Shown here piece by piece: positions 6,335-48,762 of a DNA stretch of 64,000 bases. The notes under the pieces were generated by a model. That model had not been told where the DNA came from. It saw only the letters and a program-made list of their open reading frames with translations, and did not search any database. The stretch comes from Chitinophagales bacterium (GTDB lineage Bacteria > Bacteroidota > Bacteroidia > Chitinophagales > Saprospiraceae). How positions within the stretch are numbered: position 1 is the first letter of the stretch; the number at the start of each line of letters is the position of its first letter. The position numbers and the translations under genes were made by a program. The stretch lies in the NCBI GenBank assembly GCA_013299105.1, contig JAAFJY010000027.1, positions 1 to 64,000 on the forward strand, read 5' to 3'.

Positions 6335-6340
6335 TGACGG

Positions 6341-7844: not shown

Positions 7845-7868
7845 AAAAACTCAAACACACATTACACC

Positions 7869-9668: not shown

Positions 9669-9723
9669 TCAATGGAAGGCACCTGAGCCTTTAGTGATAT
9701 AATGTTATGTGTTTGTAGTTTCG

Positions 9724-9759: not shown

Positions 9760-9760
9760 A

Positions 9761-9812
9761 ATGGTTAGTTGTTAATGGTTAGTTTTTAATGGTTAATGGT
9801 TAGTTGTTAGTG
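9761..9812. repeat. TTAATGGTTAGTTG microrepeats, left array
   Basis: Several short direct copies built from TTAATGG and TTAGTTG. The same units occur in reverse complement at 10001-10057, so the two arrays flank about 190 bp as inverted repeats. Confidence 0.7.
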
Positions 9813-9847
9813 GGGAATTTGTCAAATCTGCAAAACCTCGTCTAACT

Positions 9848-10000
9848 ATGCTAAACCACCAAAGTTTTCGTGTGAATGACAAAAGCGTATTTTTTGAAAC
9901 ACAAAAGAAGCAAAAGGGTCAAAAGCACCACGCTTTCGGCGTCTTCAATTGGCACAAATATTTTGTGGCTCTGCACATACCTGATGTGACCGAATTATAA
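9848..10000 (+). CDS. Doubtful 50-codon frame between inverted microrepeats
   Basis: An ATG at 9848 opens a 50-codon frame ending at 10000. The predicted peptide is basic, with FFETQKKQKGQKHHAFGVFN in its middle. It fills the space between two inverted microrepeat arrays. No ribosome-binding site or known family supports it; it may be part of a dispersed repeat unit rather than a gene. Confidence 0.2.
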   Translation: MLNHQSFRVNDKSVFFETQKKQKGQKHHAFGVFNWHKYFVALHIPDVTEL

Positions 10001-10057
10001 CAACTAATCATTAATAATTGTCATTAACCATTAACAACTAACAACTAACCATTAATA
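10001..10057. repeat. CAACTAACCATTAA microrepeats, right array
   Basis: Reverse-complement copies of the 9761-9812 units (CCATTAACAACTAAC and variants). They run into the 3' end of the hydrolase gene that stops at 10052. Confidence 0.7.
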
Positions 10058-11080
10058 AGATTTCTTCAAAAAAGAGATCAGGCCCGCAAAATAGGTCTCC
10101 TGGTCGTCCCACATACACATGTGGCCGCCCTTGGGACAAAGCAGGAATTTTCCGCCGGGGATTTGCTGGCTCATCCACTCCATGTACTTGGGATCCATCG
10201 TGTCGTGCGTGGCACCGATCACCAGGGTGGGGACCTTGATTTTGCCCAGGTCTTTGCTGCGGTCCCATTTTTCCAATTTGCCGGAAATGCCAAACTCGCT
10301 GGGGCCTTGCATGATCACGTATTGCTCGGAGTTGACGCGACCCAGGGCCCTGGTCATGGGTTCAGGCCACTCGGCCAAGGGCAAACGGCAAATGTGCTGG
10401 TTGTAAAAATGCGGGGTCAGGAGCTCCATGTAGCGGGGGCTGGCAAAATCGCCCTTGGCTTCGATGGCCTGGATTTCGGCCAGTACTTTGGGGTCGATTT
10501 GTTTGGCCAAAACATCGGCAGCGTATTGGTCGTAGGCCACGCAATCGGCCATCATGTTGGAGATGATCAGGCCCTTGAGGTGCTGCTGGTACTTCATGCT
10601 GTACTCCATCGCCAGGATACCACCCCAGGAATGCCCCAGTAGGTAAAAATTGTCTTTGTTGAGCCCCAAAGCCTGGCGTACTTGCTCTACTTCTTCCACG
10701 GAACGGGCCAGGTCCCAGAGGCTGGTGTCTTGGGGGTGGTCAGCATTGCCCGCACCAAGCTGGTCGTAGTAGATGTACTCGATGCCTTCTTGTGGCAAAT
10801 AACTGTCGAAACACTCGAAATATTCGTGCGGTACGGCTGGGCCGCCGTGCAGGAGCAGAAGTTTGACCTTGGGGTTGTTGCCCACGCGTTTGGTCCAGAC
10901 CTTGAACTTGCCTTTGGGCGTTTCGATGCTGATCATTTTTACGCCCCCGGTTTTTACGCCCGTTTCGGTGCTGCTCAGGTAAGTCTTGTAATCTGGGGCA
11001 GTGCTTTCAGTTTTGGACTGCTGACAAGCGCTGATCAGGATGATGCAACAAAAAATGAGGATGGATTGAAGTGTTTGCAT
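10052..11080 (-). CDS. Proline-iminopeptidase-like alpha/beta hydrolase, lipoprotein
   Basis: A 342-residue S33-family hydrolase with a lipoprotein signal (LISAC, Cys19). The fold markers are LLLHGGPAVPHEYF (oxyanion-hole HGGP), DQLGAGNAD, the nucleophile elbow GHSWGG (Ser151), a late Asp in GATHDTMDP and the His in KGGHMCMWDD. The family removes N-terminal proline from peptides or cleaves related amides. With the lipid anchor it should act on periplasmic peptides; the exact substrate is unknown. It is followed at its 3' end by AT-rich microrepeats and runs in the same direction as ybeY, which lies upstream. Confidence 0.88.
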   Translation of the reverse strand: MQTLQSILIFCCIILISACQQSKTESTAPDYKTYLSSTETGVKTGGVKMISIETPKGKFKVWTKRVGNNPKVKLLLLHGGPAVPHEYFECFDSYLPQEGIEYIYYDQLGAGNADHPQDTSLWDLARSVEEVEQVRQALGLNKDNFYLLGHSWGGILAMEYSMKYQQHLKGLIISNMMADCVAYDQYAADVLAKQIDPKVLAEIQAIEAKGDFASPRYMELLTPHFYNQHICRLPLAEWPEPMTRALGRVNSEQYVIMQGPSEFGISGKLEKWDRSKDLGKIKVPTLVIGATHDTMDPKYMEWMSQQIPGGKFLLCPKGGHMCMWDDQETYFAGLISFLKKSY

Positions 11081-11140
11081 GAAGGTGGTTTTTGTTCAGT
11101 GTCATTGACTGCAACAAAATACACAGGGCTGTGCAAAAAA

Positions 11141-11614
11141 TCACATTCCCTCCCACATTCCCAGCGCAGCGTCTTCCTTTTCAGTCATTTGTGCTTTTTC
11201 CTCCGGCGTTTTATCCCCAAAACCACAAAGGTGCAGCACCCCGTGGGCCATCACGCGGTACAATTCGCGTTCAAAACTGACTTGAAAAGTGTGGGCATTT
11301 TCGCGGATGCGCTCAATGCTGATGAACACATCGCCTTCAATTTCGGGAGGGTCCTGGTAGGGAAAGGTGATGATGTCGGTGAGGGTATCGTGTTGCAAGT
11401 GCTCCTGGTTGAGTGCCAGGAGGTAGTCGTCGGTGCAAAAAATGTAATTGACGAAATTTAGGTTACAATTCTCGGTCAGAATGATTTTTTCGACCCACTT
11501 GCGCAGCTTTTCTGGCGCATCGGGCTCGAAGTCGATGTCTTCCGCAAAAAAATTGATGGGATATTCGGCTTCCTCGTCAAAGGAATCACCAGCAACAAAG
11601 TCGAAATACTCCAT
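11141..11614 (-). CDS. ybeY: rRNA maturation RNase YbeY
   Basis: The 157-residue endoribonuclease works in 16S rRNA 3'-end maturation and ribosome quality control. The UPF0054 signature is present as HGVLHLCGFGDKT (residues 124-136): His124 and His128 are the first two zinc ligands. The usual third His is replaced by Asp134, a form I know from other Bacteroidota members (GYKDKT), so it is probably functional. It follows the RsbW-like ATPase gene on the same strand, separated by 96 nt holding a dispersed repeat. Confidence 0.92.
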   Translation of the reverse strand: MEYFDFVAGDSFDEEAEYPINFFAEDIDFEPDAPEKLRKWVEKIILTENCNLNFVNYIFCTDDYLLALNQEHLQHDTLTDIITFPYQDPPEIEGDVFISIERIRENAHTFQVSFERELYRVMAHGVLHLCGFGDKTPEEKAQMTEKEDAALGMWEGM

Positions 11615-11642
11615 AAAAGAATGGAAATGTAGCTTTTACGCT

Positions 11643-11712
11643 GTTATGCAGCGCATAATGGGCATTTTGGAACAACTTTTCTGACAAGTAATGGCGAAAA
11701 GGGGCCATTTTT
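11643..11712 (+). repeat. TTATGCAGCGCATAATG repeat, copy 1
   Basis: It starts with GTTATGCAGCGCATAATG, an interrupted palindrome, and ends with AAAAGGGGCCATTTT. The same two blocks recur in the same order at 29473-29532 with a different middle. It fills the ybeY/RsbW-like gap and reaches the stop codon of the latter. Confidence 0.65.
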
Positions 11713-12118
11713 AGCGGCTTCCTTCTTGGCAATCCAATCTGAATTGCATTTCTACGGTGCTCCCATTGTTTTCGAAGCGGATGCCATCTGACAACTGTTG
11801 CATCATGAACACCCCACGACCGCCGCATTTGCAGCAATTTTCGGGAGACGTGGGATCGGGTACTTTGGCAGGGTCAAAGCCACGGCCTTGATCAGAAACC
11901 CTGACGGCTAGACAATCGGATGTTTTGCGGAATTGTACCTCTACTGTTTTGGATTTGTCACAAGCATTGCCGTGAATAATCGCATTGTTCACCGCTTCGG
12001 TGAGGCTGATCAGAATATTGCCGTAGAGATCGGGGCTGACTTTGTACTTTCTAAGCATTTGATCCAAAAAACCTTGGAGCAAATCAACGCTACGTGGAGT
12101 AGAAGGTATTCTCAGCAT
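11711..12118 (-). CDS. RsbW-like anti-sigma ATPase/kinase
   Basis: A 135-residue single-domain GHKL ATPase of the RsbW/SpoIIAB type. The N-box is SLTEAVNNAIIHGNA, the G1 box VSDQGRGFDPAKVPD, and the G2 box GGRGVFMM. In the family such proteins bind a sigma factor or an anti-anti-sigma (STAS) partner and phosphorylate the latter; no STAS gene is adjacent. An odd CCKCGGRG segment places three cysteines next to the G2 box, and these might sense redox state or metal (inference). An RsbW-like gene next to ybeY is an arrangement I know from other Bacteroidota. Confidence 0.85.
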   Translation of the reverse strand: MLRIPSTPRSVDLLQGFLDQMLRKYKVSPDLYGNILISLTEAVNNAIIHGNACDKSKTVEVQFRKTSDCLAVRVSDQGRGFDPAKVPDPTSPENCCKCGGRGVFMMQQLSDGIRFENNGSTVEMQFRLDCQEGSR

Positions 12119-12463
12119 AACCTTATTTAGAGTGACGCCAATATTAAAATAAAGGGTTAATCACCTGTTCTGCACTTCCATTGGCGACTAAATGCGCGAA
12201 AACAGGGGCAATTTAAGCCTTTTTTGCTTAGGATGCAACTGGTTTTTACCAACACAATGCACAAATATCTGTTAGTGAAGGTGAAAAACGAATTTGCGGC
12301 GACCTAAGGCATTCATCTATATTATACGAGAAAGAATCAGCGAGGTCACCCGCAAAAGCTTATGAAAACGCCACGGGCTCAAAAAAAGTTGAAACGTGCT
12401 GAAAAACAAAGTGGTAGCGGCATTGCTCTTTTCAACATTTCAACCTTCAACCTTTCAACTAAA
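12119..12463. other. Spacer with TTCAAC microrepeats
   Basis: No gene is seen. The right end (about 12430-12460) carries TTCAACATTTCAACC followed by two more TTCAAC units, just after the stop of tgt. The same units recur in other spacers (about 13652-13712, 50330-50356, 57052-57082). Confidence 0.5.
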
Positions 12464-13600
12464 CTAAAGTCGCTGCTCCACTTTCCGCAGCATTTCCGCT
12501 TTCCAAGTGCTGAAAGTACCGTCGGCGATGTGTTTGCGGGCCTCGCCTACCAACCACAAAAAGAAGGAGAGGTTGTGCAAAGTAGCGATTTGCATCCCCA
12601 AAATCTCGCCGCAGTGGACCAGGTGCCGCAGGTAAGCTTTGCTGTAAAAACGGCTGCTGCTGCAAGTACTTTCGGGGTCGATGGGCGAAAAATCGTGGCT
12701 CCATTTGGCGTTGCGCATGTTCATGACCCCATTGGCGGTGTACAACAACCCATGCCGGGCATTGCGGCTGGGCAACACACAATCGAACATGTCGATGCCC
12801 AGGGCGATGCACTCCAGGAGGTTGCTCGGCGTACCCACGCCCATGAGGTAACGGGGCTTGTCGCGGGGCAAAATGCCGCAGACCAGCTCGGTCATGGCGT
12901 ACATTTCTTCGGCGGGCTCGCCTACCGACAAGCCGCCGATCGCATTGGCTGGCCGCTCAAAAGATGCGATGGCTTCGGCAGACTGGATGCGCAGGTCTTT
13001 GTAGGTGCTGCCTTGCACGATGGGGAAAAGGGTTTGCTCATAGCCGTACAGGCCTTGGGTTTCGTCAAAATGGGCACAGCAGCGCTTGAGCCAGCGATGG
13101 GTCATTTCCATCGACTTTTGGGCGTATTTGTATTCGCAAGGGTAGGGCGTACATTCGTCAAAAGCCATGATGATGTCGCCGCCGATGATGCGTTGGATGT
13201 CGATGGCTCGCTCAGGACTAAACAAGTGCTTGGAGCCGTCGATGTGCGATTGGAAAGTCACCCCTTCTTCTACAATTTTACGGGTACCACTCAGGGAATA
13301 GACCTGATAGCCGCCGCTGTCGGTGAGAATGGGCTTGTCCCAGCCGTTGAATTTGTGCAACCCCCCCACCTGTTGCAAAACTTCGGTACCAGGCCGCAGG
13401 TACAAGTGGTAAGTATTGCCCAGGATGATCTGGGCCTTGATTTCGTCCACCAATTCGTGCTGGTGAACGGCTTTGACCGAACCAGCCGTGCCAACGGGCA
13501 TGAAAATGGGGGTTTCAATGGGGCCATGTGCCGTTTGAATCAGCCCGGCTCTGGCCGAGGATTGTGGGTCATTGTGCTGTATGGTGAAGGAAAAAGACAT
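12464..13600 (-). CDS. tgt: tRNA-guanine(34) transglycosylase (queuosine pathway)
   Basis: The 378-residue TIM-barrel enzyme swaps guanine-34 of Asp/Asn/His/Tyr tRNAs for preQ1. Landmarks: GNTYHLYLRPG, DSGGYQV with Asp94, DECTPYP, GGLSVGEP, YLMGVGTP and FDCVLPSRNARHG with the nucleophile Asp273. The zinc site is degenerate: the usual C-x-C-x2-C reads Ser311, Cys313, Ser316, while the distal His342 is kept. I recall that many Bacteroidota Tgt proteins have lost this zinc site while keeping the catalytic residues, so activity is likely. No other queuosine gene is adjacent. Confidence 0.95.
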   Translation of the reverse strand: MSFSFTIQHNDPQSSARAGLIQTAHGPIETPIFMPVGTAGSVKAVHQHELVDEIKAQIILGNTYHLYLRPGTEVLQQVGGLHKFNGWDKPILTDSGGYQVYSLSGTRKIVEEGVTFQSHIDGSKHLFSPERAIDIQRIIGGDIIMAFDECTPYPCEYKYAQKSMEMTHRWLKRCCAHFDETQGLYGYEQTLFPIVQGSTYKDLRIQSAEAIASFERPANAIGGLSVGEPAEEMYAMTELVCGILPRDKPRYLMGVGTPSNLLECIALGIDMFDCVLPSRNARHGLLYTANGVMNMRNAKWSHDFSPIDPESTCSSSRFYSKAYLRHLVHCGEILGMQIATLHNLSFFLWLVGEARKHIADGTFSTWKAEMLRKVEQRL

Positions 13601-13651
13601 TCGAAAGGGATTCCGGGTTTGCGGGAAATTGGGGGCTTTTAGCCTAAATGT

Positions 13652-13712
13652 TGAAATATTTATATGTTGAAAAGAAGGTATTATTTGCGGAGCCTACTTT
13701 TCAACCCTTCAA
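13652..13712. repeat. TTCAAC/GTTGAA microrepeats forming a hairpin
   Basis: GTTGAAAAG and CTTTTCAAC lie about 22 nt apart and can pair; further GTTGAA and TTCAAC units flank them. They lie between tgt and the SlyD-like gene. Confidence 0.5.
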
Positions 13713-13718
13713 CGACAT

Positions 13719-14234
13719 TCAATTTTCCCAATCCAAATAATTGATGCCATCCTCTTCGATGTAGGATTTGCGGATCAACTCCTCCACAGTGGCGTTGCGT
13801 ACTTTCAGGACTACACCTTTGAAATTTAAGGTTTTCCCAGCCATTGCATGGTTGAAGTCTACAACTATTTGCTCTTCGTTGATGGACAAAATTACGCCGG
13901 GGTGCTCGTAGCCCTCTTCGTCGTGAAGGGTGATGTATTGTCCTCTCTCGATCGGCCCATTTAGTTCCTCTTCCTGAAACAAGGTCCTGGGCAAGGGGAT
14001 GATGCCGTCTGGGTCGGTATCCCCATAGGCATGCTCCGGACTCAGGGTGAACTCAAATGGATCACCCTCTTTCAAGCCTTCCAATTGTTCTTCAAAAGCA
14101 GGTAAAAGCTGTCCGGCTCCAAAGAAAAATTTGAAAGGATAGTGCACGCTCATTTCTTCGAGGAGCTCGCCATCTGGGCCATTTTCGCGCAACTGGTAAC
14201 TGAGAATGACGATCTTGTTTTCTTCAACCTGCAT
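13719..14234 (-). CDS. SlyD-like FKBP-type peptidyl-prolyl isomerase
   Basis: The 171-residue protein has the split FKBP domain of the SlyD family: YQLRENGPDGELLEE, FFFGAGQLLPAFEEQLEGL, then the inserted IF chaperone flap around HAYGDTDPDGIIPL to FNHAMAGKTLNFKGVVL. It catalyses prolyl cis/trans isomerisation and chaperones cytoplasmic proteins. Unlike E. coli SlyD, it lacks the His/Cys-rich nickel-binding tail and ends with an acidic YIEEDGINYLDWEN. It is very acidic overall. It lies upstream of tgt on the same strand, 118 nt away. Confidence 0.88.
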   Translation of the reverse strand: MQVEENKIVILSYQLRENGPDGELLEEMSVHYPFKFFFGAGQLLPAFEEQLEGLKEGDPFEFTLSPEHAYGDTDPDGIIPLPRTLFQEEELNGPIERGQYITLHDEEGYEHPGVILSINEEQIVVDFNHAMAGKTLNFKGVVLKVRNATVEELIRKSYIEEDGINYLDWEN

Positions 14235-14250
14235 AGGTGGATTTTGAGAT

Positions 14251-14394
14251 TAAGGGAGCGTGAAAAATGAGGTGGACGGATTTGGGTTCGTGAAAAAAGA
14301 AAAGCAACTGGATGAAAGGAAGTTGTGTTCTTTTTTTGCTAAACCTCAAAAGCAAATACGTCCAATTTATTTTAGCTCAAATACTAAAGAACAA
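14251..14394 (+). repeat. ~140-bp hairpin repeat element, copy A
   Basis: This copy begins TAAGGGAGCG and ends near TTTTAGCTCAAATACTAAAG. The ends are inverted repeats of each other (GAGC...GTGGACGGATTTG against CAAATACGTCC...AGCTC), and an inner inverted pair surrounds a short loop, so the whole can fold into one long hairpin. Near-identical copies lie at 31271-31415 (same orientation) and 40283-40422 (opposite). It encodes nothing. It is MITE- or REP-like. Confidence 0.75.
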
Positions 14395-14472
14395 AGATAG
14401 GGCGGTTCTTTGAAAAAACGAACTCGGAATCAATCTTGCTTCAGCATACCACAATCGTCCAGTTTCGTAAAA

Positions 14473-15762
14473 TCAAGCTCCTGCAAATCGACCCCAGCCA
14501 GGGTATTTCAACAACAGCAACAAGAAAAAATTAAATACCGCCACGCCCATTGCATTGTCGATACTGGCCTCGACCATAAATGCCGCTACTGACATGGAAT
14601 AATGGGCCAATAAAAGGTCATCAACGTAGTTTTTTCGAAAAAACAAGGGCAAAAACAAGCCAATCAGGAACAAAACCAGGCCCAAAATGCCCGAACCAGC
14701 CATTACAAACAAAAACTGGTTGTGGGGAATCATTACCTTAGGGGTATCCGGGAAATGGGTTTGGTATTGGAACTCTACTTCGCGCCGCAAATTGCCAGCC
14801 CCTACTCCGCACCAAGGTGCAGATTGAAAAATATACCAGCCTACCTGCAAAGTCCGCAAGCGCTCAGCATCAGAGTGCAGAGTGGCATTGCCATTTCGAT
14901 ATTGCTGCAAATCGTACAAAGTGTAGTTCAGTTTTTCCTGCAAACTGGGCATGGTTTTCAAGGCAAACAATGGCAACAAAAATAAGCCCGCAAGCAGTAA
15001 GAACAAGTAAACAAAACGCCGACTCAGGTAAATGTGTCGAACGCCCAAGACCAAAACCGCAAAGTACAAGGCCAACAAACCGCTGCGCACTGCGATAAAA
15101 TGCAAAAAAGCCAGTAAGAAAATTGTCAGCCCGGCAATCAGGTATTTTTCCCAGCTTTTTTTCCAAAAATAACCTTTGAACCAAAGGAAATAGCCCACAA
15201 AAATACCCATTGCTACCATAGAACTGAACCGAATATGATTGGCAGGCATGGGAATGTGGCGGCCTTCTTTCAACTCGAGTTGAGCTTCTTGAAAATGAAA
15301 AAGGTAATTTAGAAAGATACCCAGACCAGTAATTGACAACAAAACAAGCAGAAAATACAACAAGCCCAGGAATTGCCTTTGGCTGAAATTGGGCAACATG
15401 AAATACACCCAAGGCATCAGAAAAAAAGGCACTTTGGTTTTCAAGCGTTCCAAAAAATATTCAGGGTCTTGTACGTCAAAAGCACTGAGCAGGGGAAGTA
15501 GCATAAAAATGGCGAGGATCCACAAGTCAGGTCTTTTCACAAATGCTTGCCAACGCGCCTTGAAATCTACCCGCTCGCGCAGCAATTCCCAAACGACCAA
15601 AATGGTGAGACCAAACATGCTGGCTGATTGCACCCAAGGGGCCACGATCATGCCCAGCAATTGGGCCGCCAGGCAAAACCAGCTGAGGTAGAGCCTGATC
15701 TCGATTTCACTATAAAGGCCAATTTGCAGCCGGGAACCATCCTTGAATCTGTTGACGTTCAT
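14473..15762 (-). CDS. O-antigen ligase-like membrane protein (Wzy_C)
   Basis: The 429-residue protein has about ten hydrophobic segments. A long periplasmic loop between the late helices includes WYIFQSAPWCGVGAGNLRRE and MIPHNQFLFVMAGSGILG, the G-x-G-x-x-N and H-N-x-x-L motifs of WaaL/Wzy_C proteins. The family joins or polymerises undecaprenyl-linked glycans at the outer face of the inner membrane. The ATG at 15762 is preferred to a TTG at 15807 because a TAATTTTG -7 box overlaps that upstream codon. It is divergent from pheS and not in a polysaccharide gene cluster. Confidence 0.8.
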   Translation of the reverse strand: MNVNRFKDGSRLQIGLYSEIEIRLYLSWFCLAAQLLGMIVAPWVQSASMFGLTILVVWELLRERVDFKARWQAFVKRPDLWILAIFMLLPLLSAFDVQDPEYFLERLKTKVPFFLMPWVYFMLPNFSQRQFLGLLYFLLVLLSITGLGIFLNYLFHFQEAQLELKEGRHIPMPANHIRFSSMVAMGIFVGYFLWFKGYFWKKSWEKYLIAGLTIFLLAFLHFIAVRSGLLALYFAVLVLGVRHIYLSRRFVYLFLLLAGLFLLPLFALKTMPSLQEKLNYTLYDLQQYRNGNATLHSDAERLRTLQVGWYIFQSAPWCGVGAGNLRREVEFQYQTHFPDTPKVMIPHNQFLFVMAGSGILGLVLFLIGLFLPLFFRKNYVDDLLLAHYSMSVAAFMVEASIDNAMGVAVFNFFLLLLLKYPGWGRFAGA

Positions 15763-40424: not shown

Positions 40425-40440
40425 CCACATCAACATGTGG
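40425..40440. promoter_or_regulatory. Palindrome CCACATCAACATGTGG, candidate response-regulator site
   Basis: 6-bp arms flank CAAC. The palindrome plus the next four bases (TTGC) recur at 45216-45235 with one difference. In both places it starts exactly 39 bp before a CAnnTTTG box, and the TTG just after it stands 20 bp from that box, the normal Bacteroidota -33/-7 spacing. This arrangement fits an activator bound next to the -33 element. Confidence 0.6.
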
Positions 40441-40463
40441 TTGCTTCCCTTGACGCCAATGTC

Positions 40464-40471
40464 CAACTTTG
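40464..40471 (+). promoter_or_regulatory. Degenerate -7 box CAACTTTG of the regulator gene
   Basis: It has C instead of T at the first consensus position, as does its counterpart at 45255-45262. A weakened box is usual for activator-dependent promoters. It ends 4 nt before the ATG at 40476, so the transcript would start within or very near the start codon; a slightly displaced start site is possible. Confidence 0.45.
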
Positions 40472-40475
40472 CAAC

Positions 40476-41114
40476 ATGGAAAACATCAAACTCGCCATCG
40501 TCGAAGACGATCCCCTGATTCGGGAAAGTCTGGAAAATTTTCTACAGGAGCACCCAGCCATAAGCATCAGCTTGGTGAAGGGTAGCATGGAGGCCTTTTT
40601 GGAGGCCATCAAGGATGCAGATCGGCAAAAACTTGATGTGTTGCTGCTTGACATCGAGCTGCCCGGCATGTCGGGTATTCAAGGCATTTACCACATCCGC
40701 CAAAAGTACCCTGAACTGGACATTGTGATGCTCACGACCTTTGAAGAGGAAGAAATGATTTTCAACGCTTTGTGCGCGGGCGCTTGCTCTTACATTTCCA
40801 AAAGAACGCCGCTGGCCACTATCCGGGAGGCGGTGTTTACGGTGCACCGGGGTGGTTCGTACATGTCGCCCTCCATTGCCCGCAAAATTGCACAGCATTT
40901 CATGCCCAAAGAACAAACCGACCACGAATTGCTGTCGCTACGCCAAAAAGAAATCGTTCGGGGAATTGTGGATGGCCTGAGTTATAAAATGATAGCCGAT
41001 CGGCTCAACATCTCCATCGACACGGTGCGTGACCACATCAAACGTATTTATCGCGCCCTGGAAGTGAACAGCAAGGCAGAAGTGATTCGGAAGTCGCTGG
41101 ATGGAGAGATATGA
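40476..41114 (+). CDS. NarL/FixJ-type response regulator
   Basis: A 212-residue two-domain regulator. The receiver domain has acidic residues EDD at 10-12, the phosphorylated Asp59 in LLLDIELPGMSG, a Thr in MLTTFEEE and the Lys in SYISKRTPLA. The C-terminal LuxR-type helix-turn-helix shows LSLRQKEIVRGIVDGLSYKMIADRLNIS-type sequence and TVRDHIKRIYRALEVNSK. The partner is almost certainly the HisKA_3 kinase at 42182. The ATG at 40476 agrees with family starts; the 53-codon extension upstream crosses the repeat and promoter. Likely autoregulated through the palindrome at 40425. Confidence 0.93.
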   Translation: MENIKLAIVEDDPLIRESLENFLQEHPAISISLVKGSMEAFLEAIKDADRQKLDVLLLDIELPGMSGIQGIYHIRQKYPELDIVMLTTFEEEEMIFNALCAGACSYISKRTPLATIREAVFTVHRGGSYMSPSIARKIAQHFMPKEQTDHELLSLRQKEIVRGIVDGLSYKMIADRLNISIDTVRDHIKRIYRALEVNSKAEVIRKSLDGEI

Positions 41115-41236
41115 TGATTGTAACTGCTTTTTCTTTGCCTAATGAACCGCAATAAATCGGCGGCAATTGACACTGCGATTTTTCAGATTCATCAGAGCAT
41201 GTTTAAAACACACTCTTAAATAAAACACCTTAAACC

Positions 41237-42016
41237 ATGATTTTTCACGCACCTGAAGACCCTGGCCAGAGTCTCAAATTTCAAGAAGCCCAAGATTTGA
41301 TGGAAAACAACCGCATCAAATCAAAATTGCACGCCCTACGGCTTTACTGGACTTTTTTGCCTCAAGACTTGCTCAAGGACCTGCTGGCGGAACCCAATTG
41401 CGTGGGCGTCCGCTTGTACAATGCCTTTCGCGAAGCCAGTACCTGCGTTGTGGTTGGCGTTTTGGCCGACGGTTCCGAAATCCAGGAAACTCAGGATGGG
41501 CAATCCGGTTATGTTTTGGTCAGTTTTAAGTCGGGTTTTGATGAGGACCAGGGCATTGACGAATTGCAAACGAACAGGGTGCCACGCCTTGATGCGGGCC
41601 TAGCAGTGCGCACTTCTTGGGGGGTATTAACTGGAGGGGGCTTGCGCACGCCAGATTTTAGTTTTGCCTCTTTTTTTAGTCGCGACGCTATCCAGGCTTT
41701 GTTGAAGCCCCAGGGCTGCAACGGGGTCAATTTTTATGTGGTTGGGATGTTGAAAAAAGGCAAGTTTCCTTTTACTCACCTGGCTGTTTCGGCTCAACAC
41801 GAATCTGAAGCGAAGCGCGTAGGGCACTTAGGGCAGGTGGCCGTATGCATTCTTTGCCCCAAGCCCTGTCCACAGCACTGTGCAGCAGACACTGAGACCG
41901 AGGCCGCGCCGAAAGAAGCGCTTGCCGAAGCTGAAGTGGTGTTGGCTGCCCCGAAAATCACCTCGGTGATGCGGACGGAAAGCGATGAAGCCAAGTACCT
42001 GCTGAATTGGATGTAA
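41237..42016 (+). CDS. Unknown protein with two related halves
   Basis: A 259-residue soluble protein. Residues about 41-80 (FLPQDLLKDLLAEPNCVGVR, then YNAFREASTCVVVGVL) and 146-185 (FSRDAIQALLKPQGCNGVNF, then YVVGMLKKGK) are similar, so the protein is an internal duplication of a ~100-residue domain. The tail has a cysteine group (CILCPKPCPQHC) and an Ala/Glu-rich stretch. It lies between the regulator and kinase genes and could be an accessory part of that signalling system. I do not recognise the family. Confidence 0.6.
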   Translation: MIFHAPEDPGQSLKFQEAQDLMENNRIKSKLHALRLYWTFLPQDLLKDLLAEPNCVGVRLYNAFREASTCVVVGVLADGSEIQETQDGQSGYVLVSFKSGFDEDQGIDELQTNRVPRLDAGLAVRTSWGVLTGGGLRTPDFSFASFFSRDAIQALLKPQGCNGVNFYVVGMLKKGKFPFTHLAVSAQHESEAKRVGHLGQVAVCILCPKPCPQHCAADTETEAAPKEALAEAEVVLAAPKITSVMRTESDEAKYLLNWM

Positions 42017-42171
42017 TAGACTTCACAACCATTGTTTATAGAGCCTATTAACGAGCCTCGGTTGACGAAAAGCTGCCCCAAATTTGTCTCGAAACCACTG
42101 CCCTAAGTTTTTACACTAATTCTCGTTTATCTACAATTTTGTTGTAATTTCAGGGGGACAAATTCAGGCAG

Positions 42172-42179
42172 TAAATTTG
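42172..42179 (+). promoter_or_regulatory. -7 box TAAATTTG at the kinase start
   Basis: An exact TAnnTTTG match ending 2 nt before the ATG at 42182. If used, the message would begin at or inside the start codon, and translation might start at Met7 (42200), which directly precedes the signal-like hydrophobic segment. Confidence 0.35.
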
Positions 42180-42181
42180 CT

Positions 42182-45100
42182 ATGCGGCACCTAAAACAAA
42201 TGTTTTTCATCGGATTGTTGGGAATGGTAGGGACCTGTTTTGGTCAATACCATTCCCAACTCCATTTTCGGCGGCTGTCTAGAGAGAATGGCCTTGCGCT
42301 CAGCGAAAATACCTTTGTTTTCCAGGATTACTATGGCCTTACGTGGTTCAATTCCCGCGAGGGGCTGAACTGTTTCAACGGGCATACCATCCAGAAATTT
42401 GCTAAATTGAGTGGGCAACTCCTCACAGGCGCTTGCCTGGAGGACCCTGACCACAACCTCTGGTTTTCGACGCTCGAAGCCGTTTATTGCTACCGACGCA
42501 AGACGGGGGCCTTTCAGCGATACCAGTTGGCCCAACCCGGGAAAACGGCTCTCAAGTCGGCTTACTATGCTTTTCATTTGGATGAACAAGGCTTTCTATG
42601 GGTACAACTTGGCGGCAGCGTGCAAGGTTTTTTGTACCTCTTCAACACCCGAAATGGCACTTTTTCGCCAAAATTCCCCCTGCCTGGCGACCTGTGCTAC
42701 CTGCTTAAAGACCGAGCAGGAAAGCCCAAAACCATTGTTTCGACCAAGCGCCCCGAAGGTTGGGGATTGTTGTTGACCGATGTACAAAGCGGACGAGGAG
42801 CATGGAAAACGTTCCAAGTCTATTCAAACGGTAAACGCCCCCGTTACCCGGTTTATACCAATAGCGTCTATGTCGAGGGTGACAGCGTCATCTGGGCAGC
42901 AGTGTACGATGGAATTGGGGTCTATTTTCCCAAAAAAGGCCAGGCTATTATCGCTATCGGTCGGCACCCTGACCTAAAGATTGAAGGCCAGGGCATCGGC
43001 GAAATTTGGTCCCTTGCACCTTACGGTAAGCACCACCTGCTGGCCTCAACCGAAGAAGCGGGACTCTTGCTTTTTGACAAACGCAGCTTGCAGTTTGTGG
43101 ACCAAATACTGGCTGACCAAAACACGCCCTTTGGCCTGAAAAGCAACGCGCTAAAAGAAATGTACCTCTCGCCACAGCAAAATCTTTGGGTTACTGAAAT
43201 TAACCAAGGGCTTTCTTTTACCAATTTGCAAGGACAAAAATTCAAAACCTTGCCTAGCGCTAATGGCAAGTCTTTTGTCAGTATCTTCGAAGACCAAGGA
43301 CAGCGAATGTGGTGCAGCACACAGGATTCAGGATTGTATGTGTTCAATCACCAAGGCCAACTGTTGTACCATACCAATCGCTATGACAACCCTGGCAACC
43401 CAGCCGAGTCCACGATGTTGCCTATCCATGCATTTTTTGAAATCGGCAAAAATGATTTGTGGGGCTTGTACCTACAAAACCTCCTGCGCTGGGATGCCAA
43501 TAAAAAGCTGTTTCACTACGAAGGCGCTTACACCATCAGGCATCCCAGCGAAAAGGTGAACCCGCTCCAAAACCGGGCGGGAAAAATGATCCTGTCGGTC
43601 GGTAACGAACTGCTGGAACTTCACATCAAGCAACAACAACCCGAATACCAAACCTTCTTGGACCTTAGCCCTTGGCGGGTGCAACTCATCACAAACCTTT
43701 TTCAGGACTCCCGTGGACAGTATTATCTAGCCGACAACTACCGCCGCCTGCTCCTGGTGAAGGAACAAAATGATGCCGCCAGCCTGGTGCGCGATTTTGA
43801 GCACTTCGGTGAATGCCACGCTTTTTACGAAGACCAAAACCGGGTGTGGATTGCGGGCAGCAAAGGCTTGTTCAGTTTGCAGCCAGGCGGTGCCCCACAG
43901 GCGGCACCTGGACTACCCGCCGAGACCTTCTATACAGTCATTCCCGATGGCAAGGGCTATCTTTGGTTGAGTAGCAACAATGGCTTGTTGCGTTACCATC
44001 CGGTGCAGCGGCGTTGGGACCGTTTTTCGCAGGCTGATGGCCTCCAAAGCCAGGGATTTGCCCCCCGTGCCTGGCACAAGGCCTCCAATGGCGAAATTTG
44101 GTTGGGCGGGCCCAATGGTTTGAATGTTTTTCATCCCGATTCCATCAAAAATGAAGCGGGCTTCCCGCCACTGATGATTGACCACATCAAGGTCAACGAC
44201 GTAAATTATCAAGCTGGGCAAAATACCTTGACGCTCCAGCGCATCCCTCGACTCGGTCAGCAAGAAAATACCCTTTCCTTTGATTTTTTGGCAGTTGAGT
44301 ACCAAGATCCTGGAGCTATTCGATTGAAGTACCGCCTGCGCGGGCAGGATGAGGCCTGGATTGAAACCTCCAATCCGGGCTTTGTGCGCTTTTCCAAACT
44401 ACCGCCTGGGGCTTACACCCTGGAATGCCTGGCGACCAATGCCGATGGTATTTGGATGCCAGGGTCAATGGCTAAGAAATTAGCTTTCTTTATTCCTACC
44501 CCTTGGTGGCGCACTTGGTGGTTCTATATCTTTTGCATGGCTACCACTGCGGCCATTGCATACGGTATTTTCGCCTATCGTTTGCAACAAGCCTTAAAAA
44601 TTGAGCGCATCCGGGTGCGCATCTCCAGTGATTTGCACGACGATGTAGGCACAATATTGTCTGGCCTCGCCATGCAATCCGAAATCCTGGAATTGAGCGC
44701 TCCCGAACCCAGCAAACCCAAGCTTCGCCGCATCAGCGAATTGAGCCGCAGCGCCATGTCGCGGATGCGTGATACAGTATGGGCCATCGACGCCCGCAAA
44801 GACAAGCTCGAAAACCTGATCGACCGCATGCGCGAGCACGCCGAAGAAACCCTTACGCCCCGTGACATCCTGCTCGACTTGCAAGTGGATGATTTGGCCC
44901 TGACTAAAAACATGCCCTCCCAAATTCGGCAGGCGCTTTACCTGATCTATAAAGAAGCAGTTACCAATTGTGCGAAGCATTCCAAGGGCGATAAAGTACA
45001 AGTAAGGCTGCAAAAAATTGGTGCCAAGGGCCTGGAGATGTCCATTCATGACAATGGTGTGGTCATGCAAAAAAATTATAAAACTACTGGCCTGGGTTTG

Positions 45101-45199
45101 TCCAGCATGCACCTGCGCGCCCAGCAAATTGGGGCTGATTTTTCGATCGACACGGCCAATGGCTTTCTGATCACCGTGAAAATTCCACGTTTTTCCTAA
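42182..45199 (+). CDS. Two-component sensor kinase with beta-propeller sensor (Reg_prop/Y_Y_Y/HisKA_3)
   Basis: A 1005-residue membrane kinase. It has a signal segment (FFIGLLGMVGTCFGQ), about 650 residues of Reg_prop beta-propeller repeats (DYYGLTWFNSREGLNCFNG, DQGQRMWCSTQDSGLYVFN, KGYLWLSSNNGLLRYHP and others), and a Y_Y_Y domain around LKYRLRGQDEAWIETSNPGF. One transmembrane helix follows near 785, then HisKA_3 with DLHDDVGT (His819) and a HATPase_c domain (YKEAVTNCAKHS, TTGLGLSSM). Such sensors often detect glycans or surface signals. No receiver or AraC domain is fused; the separate regulator at 40476 is the likely target. Confidence 0.93.
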   Translation: MRHLKQMFFIGLLGMVGTCFGQYHSQLHFRRLSRENGLALSENTFVFQDYYGLTWFNSREGLNCFNGHTIQKFAKLSGQLLTGACLEDPDHNLWFSTLEAVYCYRRKTGAFQRYQLAQPGKTALKSAYYAFHLDEQGFLWVQLGGSVQGFLYLFNTRNGTFSPKFPLPGDLCYLLKDRAGKPKTIVSTKRPEGWGLLLTDVQSGRGAWKTFQVYSNGKRPRYPVYTNSVYVEGDSVIWAAVYDGIGVYFPKKGQAIIAIGRHPDLKIEGQGIGEIWSLAPYGKHHLLASTEEAGLLLFDKRSLQFVDQILADQNTPFGLKSNALKEMYLSPQQNLWVTEINQGLSFTNLQGQKFKTLPSANGKSFVSIFEDQGQRMWCSTQDSGLYVFNHQGQLLYHTNRYDNPGNPAESTMLPIHAFFEIGKNDLWGLYLQNLLRWDANKKLFHYEGAYTIRHPSEKVNPLQNRAGKMILSVGNELLELHIKQQQPEYQTFLDLSPWRVQLITNLFQDSRGQYYLADNYRRLLLVKEQNDAASLVRDFEHFGECHAFYEDQNRVWIAGSKGLFSLQPGGAPQAAPGLPAETFYTVIPDGKGYLWLSSNNGLLRYHPVQRRWDRFSQADGLQSQGFAPRAWHKASNGEIWLGGPNGLNVFHPDSIKNEAGFPPLMIDHIKVNDVNYQAGQNTLTLQRIPRLGQQENTLSFDFLAVEYQDPGAIRLKYRLRGQDEAWIETSNPGFVRFSKLPPGAYTLECLATNADGIWMPGSMAKKLAFFIPTPWWRTWWFYIFCMATTAAIAYGIFAYRLQQALKIERIRVRISSDLHDDVGTILSGLAMQSEILELSAPEPSKPKLRRISELSRSAMSRMRDTVWAIDARKDKLENLIDRMREHAEETLTPRDILLDLQVDDLALTKNMPSQIRQALYLIYKEAVTNCAKHSKGDKVQVRLQKIGAKGLEMSIHDNGVVMQKNYKTTGLGLSSMHLRAQQIGADFSIDTANGFLITVKIPRFS

Positions 45200-45215
45200 A
45201 AAACTCAGCACCTGT

Positions 45216-45231
45216 CCACATCAAAATGTGG
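45216..45231. promoter_or_regulatory. Palindrome CCACATCAAAATGTGG, second candidate response-regulator site
   Basis: It is followed by TTGC as at 40441-40444 and starts 39 bp before the CATTTTTG box at 45255-45262. The exact repetition of sequence and spacing ties the promoter of the post-kinase genes to the promoter of the regulator gene. Confidence 0.6.
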
Positions 45232-45254
45232 TTGCAACAGGGGCGTAAGGCCCG

Positions 45255-45262
45255 CATTTTTG
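45255..45262 (+). promoter_or_regulatory. Degenerate -7 box CATTTTTG
   Basis: C replaces the first T of TAnnTTTG. It is 43 nt before the ATG at 45306, leaving a normal leader. Confidence 0.45.
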
Positions 45263-45305
45263 TAAGGTAAACCAGCATCAAAAACACCTTACAAAATAAC
45301 CCGTT

Positions 45306-45932
45306 ATGCGACTACTCCCACGTTTCGTTCAGCTTTCCCAAGCGCAGGATTTAAACCATTTTTCAAGCGCCTACACCGAATGTTCCGGTTTTGAGGTAAA
45401 GCGTGATTACTACGAACTCAATCAAGTTTTTGCCATCTATTGGCGGCAGCGCATGCTTGGCGGTTTTGTACTCGGCAGCGGTGAAACGCTGCGTACCCTG
45501 GAAGTTTTTGTGAGCGAGGAACAACGTGCCGCCCTCTGCGACCAAGTGAACTCAGGACTCTCTCACACCGAGATGTGTTGCTTCTGGATGGAACCGGAGG
45601 CCCGCAAAAAAGCTTGGCTCAATTTTTACGTTTGGGCCTGCGTAGCCTATGCGCTCAGGTTTTTTGGGTCTCAACAACTCATTTTTGGCACCAACTCCGT
45701 ACGCCTAGCAGCCTTGTACAGCGCAACACCCAAATGCGTCCTGCTCCATGCCGACTACCTAAACCAAAAACAGACCTACGTCTTTACTGGTCCGCGCAAA
45801 CATTGCCTCCTCGGTGTGGCGCAAATCCTACTCTACAAGCTCAAGCGGGTGTTGAAGATCACCCACCGGCGACACCTGGCCAAAGTATTTACTGCGAACG
45901 GCGGATGCCATAAAACTTTTTTGTCGGAGTAA
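45306..45932 (+). CDS. Unknown protein, possibly GNAT-like fold
   Basis: A 208-residue protein without signal peptide. The alternation of strands in DYYELNQVFAIYWRQRMLGG and FVLGSGETLRTLEVFVSEEQ, then a helix and CCFWMEPEARKKAWLNFYVW, is reminiscent of N-acyltransferase folds, but no acetyl-CoA motif can be pointed out. The C-terminus is basic. Its promoter carries the palindrome shared with the response regulator, so it should belong to that regulon. Function not recognised. Confidence 0.55.
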   Translation: MRLLPRFVQLSQAQDLNHFSSAYTECSGFEVKRDYYELNQVFAIYWRQRMLGGFVLGSGETLRTLEVFVSEEQRAALCDQVNSGLSHTEMCCFWMEPEARKKAWLNFYVWACVAYALRFFGSQQLIFGTNSVRLAALYSATPKCVLLHADYLNQKQTYVFTGPRKHCLLGVAQILLYKLKRVLKITHRRHLAKVFTANGGCHKTFLSE

Positions 45933-46015
45933 TTCAGGTCGGCCTTTTTTGACCAAAAGGAGAGAGGCCTAAACTTTTATGATTCTCTTTAAACACACAC
46001 ATAAAACCTAATTGT

Positions 46016-47494
46016 ATGAAATTCAAGTTGCATTTTTATTTGCTTGCCTGCACCTCAAGGACTTTCCTGGTCTTGTGCCTGCTGTTGTTTTCCCTGCACT
46101 GCCTCTTGGCCCAAAATACCGTAGCCTTGCGGGCGGCCAACGGCCAATACGTTTGTGCAGAAGGAGGTGGGGGTGGCTCCGTGGTAGCCAATCGCAACAG
46201 TCGCGGAGCTTGGGAAACCTTGATTCTGGAAGACCGGGGCAATGGCCAGGTCTCTCTCCGAGCGCCCAGTGGTCATTACTTCTGCGCCGAAAACGGTGGG
46301 GGCTTTGAAATCGTTGCCAATCGCAGCGCTGTAGGTCCTTGGGAGCTTTTCACCCTGGAAAACCTGGGCAACAACCAGATTGCCCTGCGTGCAGCCAATG
46401 GCCAATACCTCTGCGCCGAAGGAAGCGGCGGCGGCCCGGTGGTGGCCAACCGCAATGCCCTAGGTGCCTGGGAAACCTTTACATTGGAAGGCACGCTCAA
46501 CCAACCCACCGCAACTACTCCTAGCACTACGCCCCAGGCTTCTCAAGCCATCCCGGACTCGGACATGTGCTGGGCTGCTTCTCAGCCACGTGGTGCCGGG
46601 ACCTTTCCCAACGAATGCGGCCCTAACGAGGAGTACCAAAATGGGCTTTGTTACACCAAATGCCAGCCAGGCTACTTTGGCGAAGGACCCGTTTGTTGGA
46701 AGCCTTGCCCTGATGGCTACCGCAACGACGGCGCTTTTTGCGCCAAGCCAGCTCCATACGGTCGCGGGGCAGGGTATCCTTGGAAATTTGGCGATGGGTT
46801 CAACCTCAGTTCGGCCAAGGCCCGCTGCGAAAAGGACAACCCCCAAGGCTGCGAACAATCGGGGGCGATAATGTACCCCAAGTGCCGTCCTGGTTTTCAT
46901 CCTGTGGGCTGTTGCATCTGCAGCCCCGATTGTCCAGCCGGATTTACCGACATCGGCGTTTCTTGCGCCAAACCCAGCTACGGACGTGGTGCTGGCACCA
47001 TTCCCAGAAACTGCGGCGGCGGAAAAGTGAACCAGGCTGGCCTTTGTTATGTGCCTTGTGGCGCTGGGTATCATGGCGTTGGTCCCGTATGTTGGGCCGA
47101 CGAATGCCCCGGTGTGTTTCCTATTCGCTGTGCTGCGGGCTGCGCAAAATCTTCTAACGACTGCCTGAGTGCCATTGTCAACCAGGTGATTACTCCGCTT
47201 GAAATGGTCGCCAACATCACGGGTATTGTTTTCTCTGGCGGCAGCTCGGCCGTAGCAAAAACCGCCGCCACAACCAGTGCCAAAACCATTGCCAAGGAAA
47301 GCATCAAAAGTCAATTGCAGCGCAAAGCCAAGGAAATTGGCAAAAACCTAGCCGAGGATGCTGCGGAGAATGCCGCCACAACTTTTTATGAAGCACAATT
47401 GACTGGGGAGTTCAGTTGGGAAGACCTTGATCCAACGGGTATCGCCAACGTGGTCAAGGCATTCAACAAGCCCTTGTGTAAAGACTTTAGGTAA
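46016..47494 (+). CDS. Secreted fascin-like/cysteine-rich protein
   Basis: A 492-residue exported protein (signal TFLVLCLLLFSLHCLLAQ). Residues about 35-155 hold three fascin-type units (ALRAANGQYVCAEGGGGGSV, LRAPSGHYFCAENGGG, ALRAANGQYLCAEGSGGG), likely one beta-trefoil. A Cys-rich middle follows, with units such as CQPGYFGEGPVCWKPCPDGY and CAKP...YGRGAG recurring three times. The C-terminal ~120 residues contain a small Ala/Gly-rich hydrophobic stretch and end LDPTGIANVVKAFNKPLC. The Cys-rich part resembles proteins known mainly from protists and algae as far as I recall. Fascin-like trefoils bind actin in eukaryotes or carbohydrates in other proteins; the role here is unknown. Confidence 0.7.
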   Translation: MKFKLHFYLLACTSRTFLVLCLLLFSLHCLLAQNTVALRAANGQYVCAEGGGGGSVVANRNSRGAWETLILEDRGNGQVSLRAPSGHYFCAENGGGFEIVANRSAVGPWELFTLENLGNNQIALRAANGQYLCAEGSGGGPVVANRNALGAWETFTLEGTLNQPTATTPSTTPQASQAIPDSDMCWAASQPRGAGTFPNECGPNEEYQNGLCYTKCQPGYFGEGPVCWKPCPDGYRNDGAFCAKPAPYGRGAGYPWKFGDGFNLSSAKARCEKDNPQGCEQSGAIMYPKCRPGFHPVGCCICSPDCPAGFTDIGVSCAKPSYGRGAGTIPRNCGGGKVNQAGLCYVPCGAGYHGVGPVCWADECPGVFPIRCAAGCAKSSNDCLSAIVNQVITPLEMVANITGIVFSGGSSAVAKTAATTSAKTIAKESIKSQLQRKAKEIGKNLAEDAAENAATTFYEAQLTGEFSWEDLDPTGIANVVKAFNKPLCKDFR

Positions 47495-47515
47495 ACTAGA
47501 CTTTATGTACTATTT

Positions 47516-47552
47516 GGAGGGGCGGCTTGGTCCTTGCAGCGCTTGCCCCTCC
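47516..47552 (+). terminator. Weak stem-loop between the fascin-like and thioredoxin genes
   Basis: GGAGGGGC (47516-47523) pairs with GCCCCTCC (47545-47552) around a 21-nt loop. No T-run follows, so read-through into the next gene is possible. Confidence 0.4.
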
Positions 47553-47577
47553 TAAAATCCTTCAACCCACGCCACTT

Positions 47578-48762
47578 ATGAAAACTTCTTGCATTGCCCT
47601 GTGCTGCCTTTTGGCCAGCGCATCCATCTTTGCCCAAGGCATTCGTTTTGAACCCGAAAACAATTCATGGCCGCAAGTACTGGAGAAGGCTCGGCAAACC
47701 AACAAGCTTATTTTTGTCGTCGCTTATTCCACCTCCTGTCACAATTGCCAGGAGATGCATGACCAGGTTTATCCCCTGCCTACCGTGGGCGAGACCTACA
47801 ATGAGCGTTATTTGAATGTAAAAATAGACGTGGACCGCGCCGAAGCTGCTGATTTTGCCTCGCAATACGGAATTTTAGCTTATCCGACCTACCTGTTTAT
47901 CGATGGTCAAGGCGAGCAGGTACACCGCAGCATGGGGGCTGATTCCGCAGAAAAATTCATTAAAATGGGCCAAAGGTCTCTTCTTCCGCAGCACCAGTTT
48001 TTTCCGCTTAAACAACGCTTTTTGCAAGGCGACCGCTCCTCGGTATTGCTCAAAGACTTGTGCCTCATGGTGATGAACCTGCAAGACCAGTCGCTGATGG
48101 ACACGATCCAGTCGGCCTATCTGGCCACCCAAAGCAATTGGTTGAGCCCTGAAAACCAGGAAGTGGTACTCAGTGGCCTGCACACCATTGAGCAAAAGCG
48201 CTTCTCCTTTTTGCTAAAACACAAGGCAGCTTTTATTGCGACTTATGACTCCGTTAAAATCAACAACCTGATCGAAAAAATTGTGCTGACCAGCCTGAGC
48301 CTAAAATCCTATAACCACGAGCAGGGCGATTTTGAATTGGCCAAAGCCCAAGCCTATGCGGCGCAATACCTGCCGCAGGATGTTTACGACCAATACCTCC
48401 TCTTATTTGAGTTCAACCAACACCTGCGAAAAAACGAAACCTTGGCTTTTCAACAAAAGGCCTGCCAGTATTTCGATACCTACCCTAGCTACAACCCCTA
48501 CTTGTACCACAACATCGCCCTGGCTTTTTATGAACAAACCGAGGACCAGGCCCTGTTGAGCAAGGCCCTGGACTGGTCCTTGAAAGCCCTGGCGCTCAAA
48601 AATCTGTACCAGTTTCACGACACGACCGCAGCCCTGTACTACAAACTTGGGCAGGTAGCAACAGCCAAAATTCATGTCCTGAAAGCCTTGGACCTAGCCA
48701 AAACAGAGGGCATTGAGCTGTCGGAAACCCTTGCTTTGTTGAAGAAAATAGAAGGGAAATAG
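47578..48762 (+). CDS. Exported thioredoxin-fold protein
   Basis: A 394-residue protein with a signal peptide (CIALCCLLASASIFAQ) and an N-terminal Thioredoxin_7-type domain: NKLIFVVAYSTSCHNCQEMH with the CHNC redox motif, and YGILAYPTYLFIDGQG with the cis-Pro. The remaining ~230 residues are helical, TPR-like. It should act in the periplasm as a disulfide reductase or isomerase. Coming right after the gene for a Cys-rich secreted protein, it may help that protein fold (inference). The ATG at 47578 is chosen; the upstream TTG at 47527 lies inside the preceding stem-loop. Confidence 0.87.
   Translation: MKTSCIALCCLLASASIFAQGIRFEPENNSWPQVLEKARQTNKLIFVVAYSTSCHNCQEMHDQVYPLPTVGETYNERYLNVKIDVDRAEAADFASQYGILAYPTYLFIDGQGEQVHRSMGADSAEKFIKMGQRSLLPQHQFFPLKQRFLQGDRSSVLLKDLCLMVMNLQDQSLMDTIQSAYLATQSNWLSPENQEVVLSGLHTIEQKRFSFLLKHKAAFIATYDSVKINNLIEKIVLTSLSLKSYNHEQGDFELAKAQAYAAQYLPQDVYDQYLLLFEFNQHLRKNETLAFQQKACQYFDTYPSYNPYLYHNIALAFYEQTEDQALLSKALDWSLKALALKNLYQFHDTTAALYYKLGQVATAKIHVLKALDLAKTEGIELSETLALLKKIEGK

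Follow-up and report, generated by a model that had tools for sequence, protein, structure and literature searches.

The locus

A stretch of 64,000 nt from a Saprospiraceae genome (Chitinophagales bacterium, assembly GCA_013299105.1, contig JAAFJY010000027.1), hereafter the window, carries a putative operon for a two-component pair, and the subject of this work is a palindrome that lies upstream of this operon and again behind it, which we consider to be the operator of the response regulator (RR). Coordinates are positions in the window unless prefixed with C4, which marks a place elsewhere in the same genome; loci fetched from other genomes are labelled L and surveyed genomes G.

The first gene of the operon (40476-41114, + strand) encodes the RR, a protein of 212 amino acids (aa) with a receiver domain (Pfam Response_reg, 9.9e-23, 80.9 bits against a cut-off of 30.2) and a LuxR/NarL-type GerE domain (1.7e-13, 50.4 bits against 23.5). 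It is followed by the gene of a 259-aa protein, the companion (41237-42016, +), and by a histidine kinase gene (42182-45199, +) in which Pfam recognises propeller repeats, Y_Y_Y, HisKA_3 and HATPase_c. Two parts of the kinase are distinguished here: the sensor half, with the propeller repeats and Y_Y_Y (42182-44497, +; its end is approximate, as the junction near residue 773 was carried over from locus L016), and a constant part (44498-45199, +) with a transmembrane segment near residue 780, HisKA_3 and HATPase_c, as judged by Pfam, alignment and hydropathy. The companion and the sensor half are the first and second parts of the variable cassette described below. Behind the kinase come the second palindrome, a 208-aa gene (45306-45932, +), and genes for a fascin-domain and a thioredoxin-like protein.

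By alignment, the companion consists of two similar halves and has a PCPxxC-type motif towards the C-terminus; its length was 213-266 aa in the 18 proteins compared. No match was found in Pfam, NCBIfam, PADLOC or PHROGs (the last two searched at 0.01), a PDB sequence search gave only matches of E ≥ 0.22, none of them convincing, and simple hydropathy indicated neither a signal peptide nor a membrane helix. A fold could not be assigned, as the model (pLDDT 78.2) showed just two alpha/beta halves and had no Foldseek match at E ≤ 0.001 (TM about 0.11-0.18). Regarding the other genes, the sensor and kinase domains are those of the Reg_prop/Y_Y_Y two-component sensors of Bacteroidota, but the locus differs from these in its separate LuxR-type RR with a conserved operator, in the unannotated companion, and in the exchange of the sensor half from strain to strain.

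Two putative operators at matching promoters

Operator 1, CCACATCAACATGTGG, occupies 40425-40440 (+), and operator 2, CCACATCAAAATGTGG, identified by its sequence and by the conservation of the site before orthologues of the 45306 gene, occupies 45216-45231 (+). Both have the form CCACAT-N4-ATGTGG followed by TTGC, and in both cases the start of the palindrome lies exactly 39 bp before that of a -7 box, namely CAACTTTG at 40464-40471 (+) and CATTTTTG at 45255-45262 (+), so that the palindromes, boxes and spacings described by an earlier sequence-only reading were all recovered. The TTG abutting each palindrome (40441-40443 and 45232-45234, both +) falls in the -33 region. The predicted start of the RR transcript is 40476, which would place operator 1 from -51 to -36 (centre -43.5); the second promoter has its predicted start at 45267, leaving a leader of 39 nt. 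A palindrome that abuts the -33 region in this manner would occupy a class II-like activator position.

The palindrome is unremarkable when the window is considered alone (3 matches at up to 3 mismatches, against 1.5 expected). Across the whole 7.67 Mb genome there are four exact copies of CCACATNNNNATGTGG, three of which have a TTTR 43 bp from the palindrome start, against none in a reversed control. The third of these sites, C4:159370-159416 (-), has the box CATCTTTG at +39, and all three boxes carry C in place of the first T. The fourth exact palindrome (window 10109-10124) has no correctly spaced box and was taken as a chance occurrence, and palindromes with up to one mismatch were also discarded as extra sites, since they occur at chance level (19 a strand against 21 in the control).

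Base frequencies were obtained over 118 distinct sites from all loci. The first box position is T in 67%, C in 20% and G in 11%, so boxes with C for T are in the minority elsewhere; the second is A in 92% and the last G in 75%, which corresponds to the TAnnTTTG of sigma-ABfr-type promoters, although TTT[GA] was demanded by the search that gave these sites and the boxes of the window carry C for T. In Flavobacterium johnsoniae, the -7 box is described with T at -12, A at -11, and TTTG from -8 to -5, 4 or 5 nt from the start (PMC6847099). These promoters share with the housekeeping promoters of Bacteroidota, as that source presents them, the TAnnTTTG box at its standard place (PMC6847099), but differ from them in the C-for-T box of the three sites of this genome and in the activator-type palindrome abutting the -33 region. 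The TTG behind the palindrome (T69 T69 G50 %) seems to be more than an extension of it, as its mirror on the left side is weaker (C35 A35 A33 %).

The spacing carried over from F. johnsoniae puts the start of the RR transcript at the A of the ATG, so the RR mRNA is predicted to be leaderless. Among the 35 RR loci with palindrome and box, the TTT[GA] lies exactly 8 bp before the RR ATG in 20 and 9 bp before it in 2. Leaders shorter than 10 nt are reported to make up about 3.7% in Bacteroides thetaiotaomicron (PMC7366714), and 87% of the predicted leaders of F. johnsoniae are given as exceeding 10 nt (PMC6847099). As short leaders are a minority in both of these Bacteroidota, a leaderless mRNA would be unusual, yet not unheard of.

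Co-occurrence of palindrome and regulator

Seventy loci were fetched from named genomes with the RR as query and, together with the window region, all palindromes of the 6-4-6 form (6-base arms, 4-base spacer) were counted over these 71 loci (838,632 bases). The CCACAT-arm palindrome is present in 68 copies, the runner-up, TTTTTT, in 10, and none of the other 59 permutations of the CCACAT arm exceeds one copy (820,888 bases, 69 loci). CCACAT-N4-ATGTGG is therefore the sole over-represented palindrome of this form around the relatives of the RR, far beyond chance. In the orientation of the RR, 50 of the 68 copies have a TTT[GA] exactly at +43 from the palindrome start, with at most 8 at any other distance; in the opposite direction, only nine have it at 43.

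For analyses that needed the RR start, L050 (RR cut) and L085 (27% identity) were excluded, leaving 69 loci with the window. In 37 of them, the 330 bp upstream of the RR contain a palindrome with up to one mismatch. Its presence follows the identity of the RR: 29 of 33 loci have it where this identity is 60% or more (in 27 the box is also there, at 42-43), as do 8 of 15 at 56-60% (all 8 with the box) and none of 21 below 56%.

A similar picture was obtained from whole genomes. The palindrome with its box occurs at 82 sites in 25 of 199 genomes of the family, against 2 in the reversed control, while a class-wide sample of 395 genomes gave 7 sites in 4 genomes, 3 of them in the window genome (control 2), that is, 4 against 2 when the window genome is set aside (394 genomes). 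RR matches of at least 260 bits, a threshold set after the data had been seen, occur in 18 of the 199 family genomes, 17 of which carry a site; of the remaining 181, eight carry one, six of these with weaker RR matches and two (G131 and G185) with none at 1e-40.

Variants of the site were also observed. For instance, a palindrome with one arm changed, CCACAT-N4-ATGTAG, is present in Neolewinella persica (L029) and in two Lewinella loci (L027 and L033). In two further loci (L064 at 3266 and L066 at 1917), RRs with a TVRFHIK recognition helix have CTACAT-N4-ATGTAG upstream, a pairing which, although confined to these two loci, hints that regulator and site may change together.

Additionally, nine loci from Flavobacteriaceae and some others (L042, L047, L048, L051, L052, L054, L056, L057 and L084), seven of which keep the exact palindrome, encode a large repeat protein (cluster c3) close to the RR, in the place that the propeller kinase takes in Saprospiraceae. 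By eye, this protein may be tetratricopeptide-repeat-like.

Probable members of the regulon

The sequence-only reading had proposed that the regulator activates its own gene and the genes from 45306 to 48762. As regards the RR gene and the 45306 gene, the proposal is strongly supported, since site, spacing and RR are conserved across genomes. An orthologue of the 45306 gene is present in 20 of the 199 family genomes, and 11 of the 20 have an exact site at the gene itself, the box lying at 43. These include all ten genomes that also hold an RR of at least 260 bits, each with at least one copy so equipped; the eleventh is G187, and no site was found at the orthologue in the nine genomes with a weaker RR match or none. 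The site does not merely reflect the neighbourhood of the RR, as in G051 and G133 the orthologue with its site is on another contig than the RR. In L035, L039, L041 and L082 the orthologue is divergent from the RR and has its own operator.

The product of the 45306 gene is synthase-like in its predicted fold. A structure model from seven sequences (mean pLDDT 83.8, pTM 0.77) had as its best solved Foldseek match FeeM (2g0b, E 2.8e-6), with a TM of 0.52-0.55 by query for the top four, and other GNAT enzymes and the acyl-homoserine lactone (AHL) synthases MesI, EsaI and BjaI were among the best 25 matches, so the model has a GNAT-like synthase fold. This predicted fold is shared with FeeM N-acyl amino acid synthases, which give the best solved structures, and with LuxI-type AHL synthases, but the TM to FeeM (0.51-0.60) is moderate, Pfam FeeM stays below its gathering score of 27 bits (20.5 and 14.9 bits in two orthologues, E 4.5e-4 and 0.023), and the gene would stand under a two-component RR. 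The window protein had no Pfam match up to 0.001, and a PDB sequence search of the family gave nothing. In L144 (G018), an insertion that carries a DDE_Tnp_1 transposase splits the synthase-like gene (about 5505-7330).

The small regulon that had been proposed is consistent with the three sites of the genome, although one member, the third, falls outside the window. The site on C4 precedes the gene of a conserved 298-aa protein, which is probably secreted (a signal peptide was called by a crude home-made rule). Orthologues were found in three other genomes of the genus (G589, G125 and G588), and the upstream region could be compared in the first two only, as the contig of G588 begins inside the gene: the palindrome is exact in G589 and differs at one position in G125, and each is followed by TTTG at 43. 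More distant relatives (22-29% identity, pairwise E 2e-18 to 9e-30) directly follow a site in L023, L033 and G051; that of L037 is also downstream of a site, but at a greater distance.

In other genera, sites precede genes for lectin-like and other secreted proteins. The bias of the targets towards secreted products is weak (41 of 76, against 279 of 770 other open reading frames (ORFs), p 0.003) and depends on a home-made signal-peptide rule and on a target list that retained two RRs and several near-identical synthase-like proteins. Fatty-acid desaturase-like genes were also seen behind the same operator in three genera (L120, L149 and L165), with Pfam confirmation for L120 only.

By contrast with the 45306 gene, the genes for the fascin/Cys-rich and thioredoxin-like proteins (window 46016-48762) did not hold as regulon members, since in two genomes of the same genus they are off the RR contig and without a site. 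Fascin orthologues, matching residues 165-492 only, were found in two of the four other genomes of the genus (G125 and G589), where each adjoins a thioredoxin homologue (about 54% identity); the pair thus stays together there, unlinked to the RR. Read-through from the second promoter into both genes is possible in the window genome alone.

An exchangeable sensor-companion cassette

Among four loci of the genus (L016, L017, L018 and L019) the RRs are 98-100% identical and the kinase halves 92-95%, where comparable; companions are 18-44% and sensor halves 30-56% identical. BLASTN of L016 against L019 aligned segments of 89-95% identity over 1832-14512, with a main gap (7688-10749) that opens at the companion start codon and closes at kinase residue ~773, shortly ahead of the membrane helix (~780). 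There are also three gaps of 47-110 bp. By sequence comparison, then, companion and sensor half are replaced as one block between relatives of the same genus, and the operon is a mosaic. A second unaligned stretch of L016 (6268-6946), upstream of the operator, has a different gene content from L019.

The alleles do not follow the species. G018, a genome in four contigs rated 100% complete, shares the L017 allele (companion 85%, sensor 82% identical) with an RR of just 91% identity, while the RR of L016 is identical to that of L017, yet its allele is different (companion 35%). L017 and L018 are two alleles in one metagenome-assembled genome (MAG) and have the same upstream flank. In a tree of RR DNA, L016-L019 group together (support 95/98) and a grouping of L017 with G018 is rejected (approximately unbiased (AU) test, p 0.001); in the cassette tree, L017 groups with G018, and L019 with L020, L028 and L030 (100/100 each), and a clade of L016-L019 is rejected (AU p 5.6e-62). 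The cassette tree was built from 11 of the 18 rows, picked by hand, and its clade tests name groups already seen in identity tables. As judged from these sequences, one cassette allele is common to different species.

Companion and sensor also diverge together. Over 17 operons (L018, whose kinase is cut, was dropped from the 18) the correlation of distances is 0.91 between companion and sensor and 0.59 between companion and RR, with a partial Mantel value of 0.88 (0 of 5000 permutations). Such a correlation is expected from joint exchange, and therefore it is no proof of contact. Within the allele shared by G018 and L017, rough estimates gave a dN of 0.089 and a dS of 0.351 for the companion, against a dS of 0.79 for the sensor and 1.84 for the RR; the companion is under purifying selection in this allele, and a recent transfer fits its dS, which is below that of sensor and RR. 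Of the four parts, it is the companion that is least conserved in every pair compared from outside the genus.

This arrangement resembles the polymorphic ComQXPA loci of Bacillus, built from different parts. There, the input half of the kinase is described as variable, the cytoplasmic half as conserved and the regulator as least diverse (PMC4008528), which matches the variable input half and the constant kinase half and regulator found here. ComA, like our RR, is of the LuxR/NarL type with GerE, and its canonical site is described as two hexamers in inverted orientation, 4 nt apart (PMC4797271), the same layout as in our operators. However, the ComA hexamers are TTGCGG, and for ComA an inverted repeat shifted to the position proximal to -35 works poorly, whereas here the inverted repeat is proximal. 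The parts also differ, as this locus has a two-repeat companion and a propeller sensor with one membrane helix (~780) instead of a multi-helix membrane domain. The operon consists of RR, companion and kinase, without a recognised gene for the ComQ prenyltransferase or the ComX precursor, although neither ComQ nor ComX itself was used as a query.

Companion-like proteins beside other kinases

A profile search with the companion, whose conserved features are the two similar halves and the PCPxxC-type end, gave matches in 27 of the 199 family genomes. Twelve weaker matches (in L224, L225, L228-L231, L233, L234, L236, L237, L239 and L240) are unannotated proteins that measure 105-140 aa, contain a single repeat and likewise end in the CPxxC motif. 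In the 17 loci examined (L224-L240), ORFs read by eye place 16 companion matches next to a kinase-like or regulator gene, the neighbours being propeller sensors, an RR, or, in sets of three genes, a predicted multi-helix membrane protein of 137-217 aa followed by a short kinase. Seven sensor or kinase neighbours were submitted to Pfam, which recognised HisKA_3 with HATPase_c in three, Reg_prop in another three and HATPase_c by itself in the last; for one companion and two multi-helix proteins of these loci it returned no match. As companion-like proteins accompany kinases in general, the companion would seem to be part of signalling.

Interpretation

We consider that the palindromes are operators of the RR, that the RR activates its own operon, the 45306 gene and the C4 gene under the control of the kinase, and that companion and sensor half form an exchangeable cassette, a reading to which we assign a probability of about 0.8. 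According to this reading, the kinase would phosphorylate the RR, and a dimer of the RR would bind the palindrome just upstream of -33, centred near -43.5, thus activating promoters of the Bacteroidota housekeeping sigma type. Its targets would be the RR operon (regulator, companion and kinase), the FeeM-like synthase gene at 45306 and the C4 gene for a probably secreted protein. Autoactivation would act as a positive feedback, raising RR, companion and kinase together. The companion and the sensor half, presumably acting together, would be a replaceable specificity cassette that sets what is recognised. Related strains exchange this cassette and keep the regulator, the operators, the kinase half and the targets unchanged.

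Several observations weigh against this reading. The position of the operator alone cannot tell activation from repression, and companion and sensor would co-vary simply by being physically linked. Four of the 33 close RRs (at least 60% identity) lack the palindrome themselves, G193 has a close RR and no exact site, and one of the two synthase-like copies of G186 has no site. Conversely, G131 and G185 carry sites without an RR match at 1e-40, although with one site each they are near the control rate. Finally, the recognition helix TVRDHIK is common to other LuxR-type regulators, including relatives of about 50% identity that lack the palindrome.

What the cassette recognises is a separate question. 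Tentatively, the locus could serve self-recognition in a pherotype-like manner, by analogy with ComQXPA: the companion or its product would be a strain-specific ligand of the propeller sensor, and matching cells would activate the RR, leading to amplification and to production of the synthase-like enzyme. We regard this, our boldest reading, as less likely than not. To our knowledge, few cell-cell recognition systems are known in Bacteroidota, and no description of such a self-recognition locus in this phylum was found among the open-access papers listed, judged by title or listing.

Its main rival, to which we would give close to an even chance, is that the cassette varies because strains sense different environmental ligands, such as glycans, instead of a self signal. 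The sensor is of the Reg_prop/Y_Y_Y type, and the propeller-type hybrid sensors of gut Bacteroidota are nutrient (glycan) sensors; moreover, the targets in other genera include several lectin-like or secreted proteins. However, within the genus the known targets are constant while the sensor changes, one of them is synthase-like and not a gene for glycan use, and a companion that has neither signal peptide nor membrane helix changes together with the sensor.

A different objection concerns the regulator itself, as the sites could belong to another regulator, or the RR could act there as a repressor, with the RR operon just one target. Another regulator could indeed use the site, because the TVRDHIK helix is also found in RRs without the palindrome, and the position is silent on activation versus repression. 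We nevertheless consider this improbable, since, from one genome to the next, the sites go with the close RR orthologue, and in most close relatives they precede the RR gene, and the TVRFHIK regulators with their altered palindrome, two loci only, hint at a joint change of RR and site. Somewhat less probable still is that attack by phages or toxins drives the diversity of the sensor, the companion being an immunity-like or hitch-hiking gene. The sharing of alleles between species fits balancing selection of any cause, but PADLOC and PHROGs gave no match (0.01), and companion-like genes adjoin kinases of other architectures, which is a setting of signalling rather than defence. Lastly, we consider it very improbable that the mosaic arose artificially, through metagenome binning or through a comparison of operons that are paralogous: four of the six genus loci (L016-L019) do come from MAGs, with L017 and L018 in one MAG, but L016 and L019 each come from one contig and stay collinear, at 89-95% identity, to the left and right of the block, the four-contig G018 carries the L017 allele, and four of five genus genomes have one companion gene each, the fifth having two.

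With the RR as the activator at its own palindromes, an anonymous two-component pair becomes a defined and testable regulon, with one operator, one spacing, one regulator and named targets. The exchangeable cassette suggests that sensing in Saprospiraceae is specific to the strain, and it draws attention to a family of kinase companions that lacks annotation. If self-recognition were true, the small CPxxC companions beside other HisKA_3 kinases would represent the same principle on a wider scale, and a companion that is the ligand would offer a way into cell-cell recognition in Bacteroidota.

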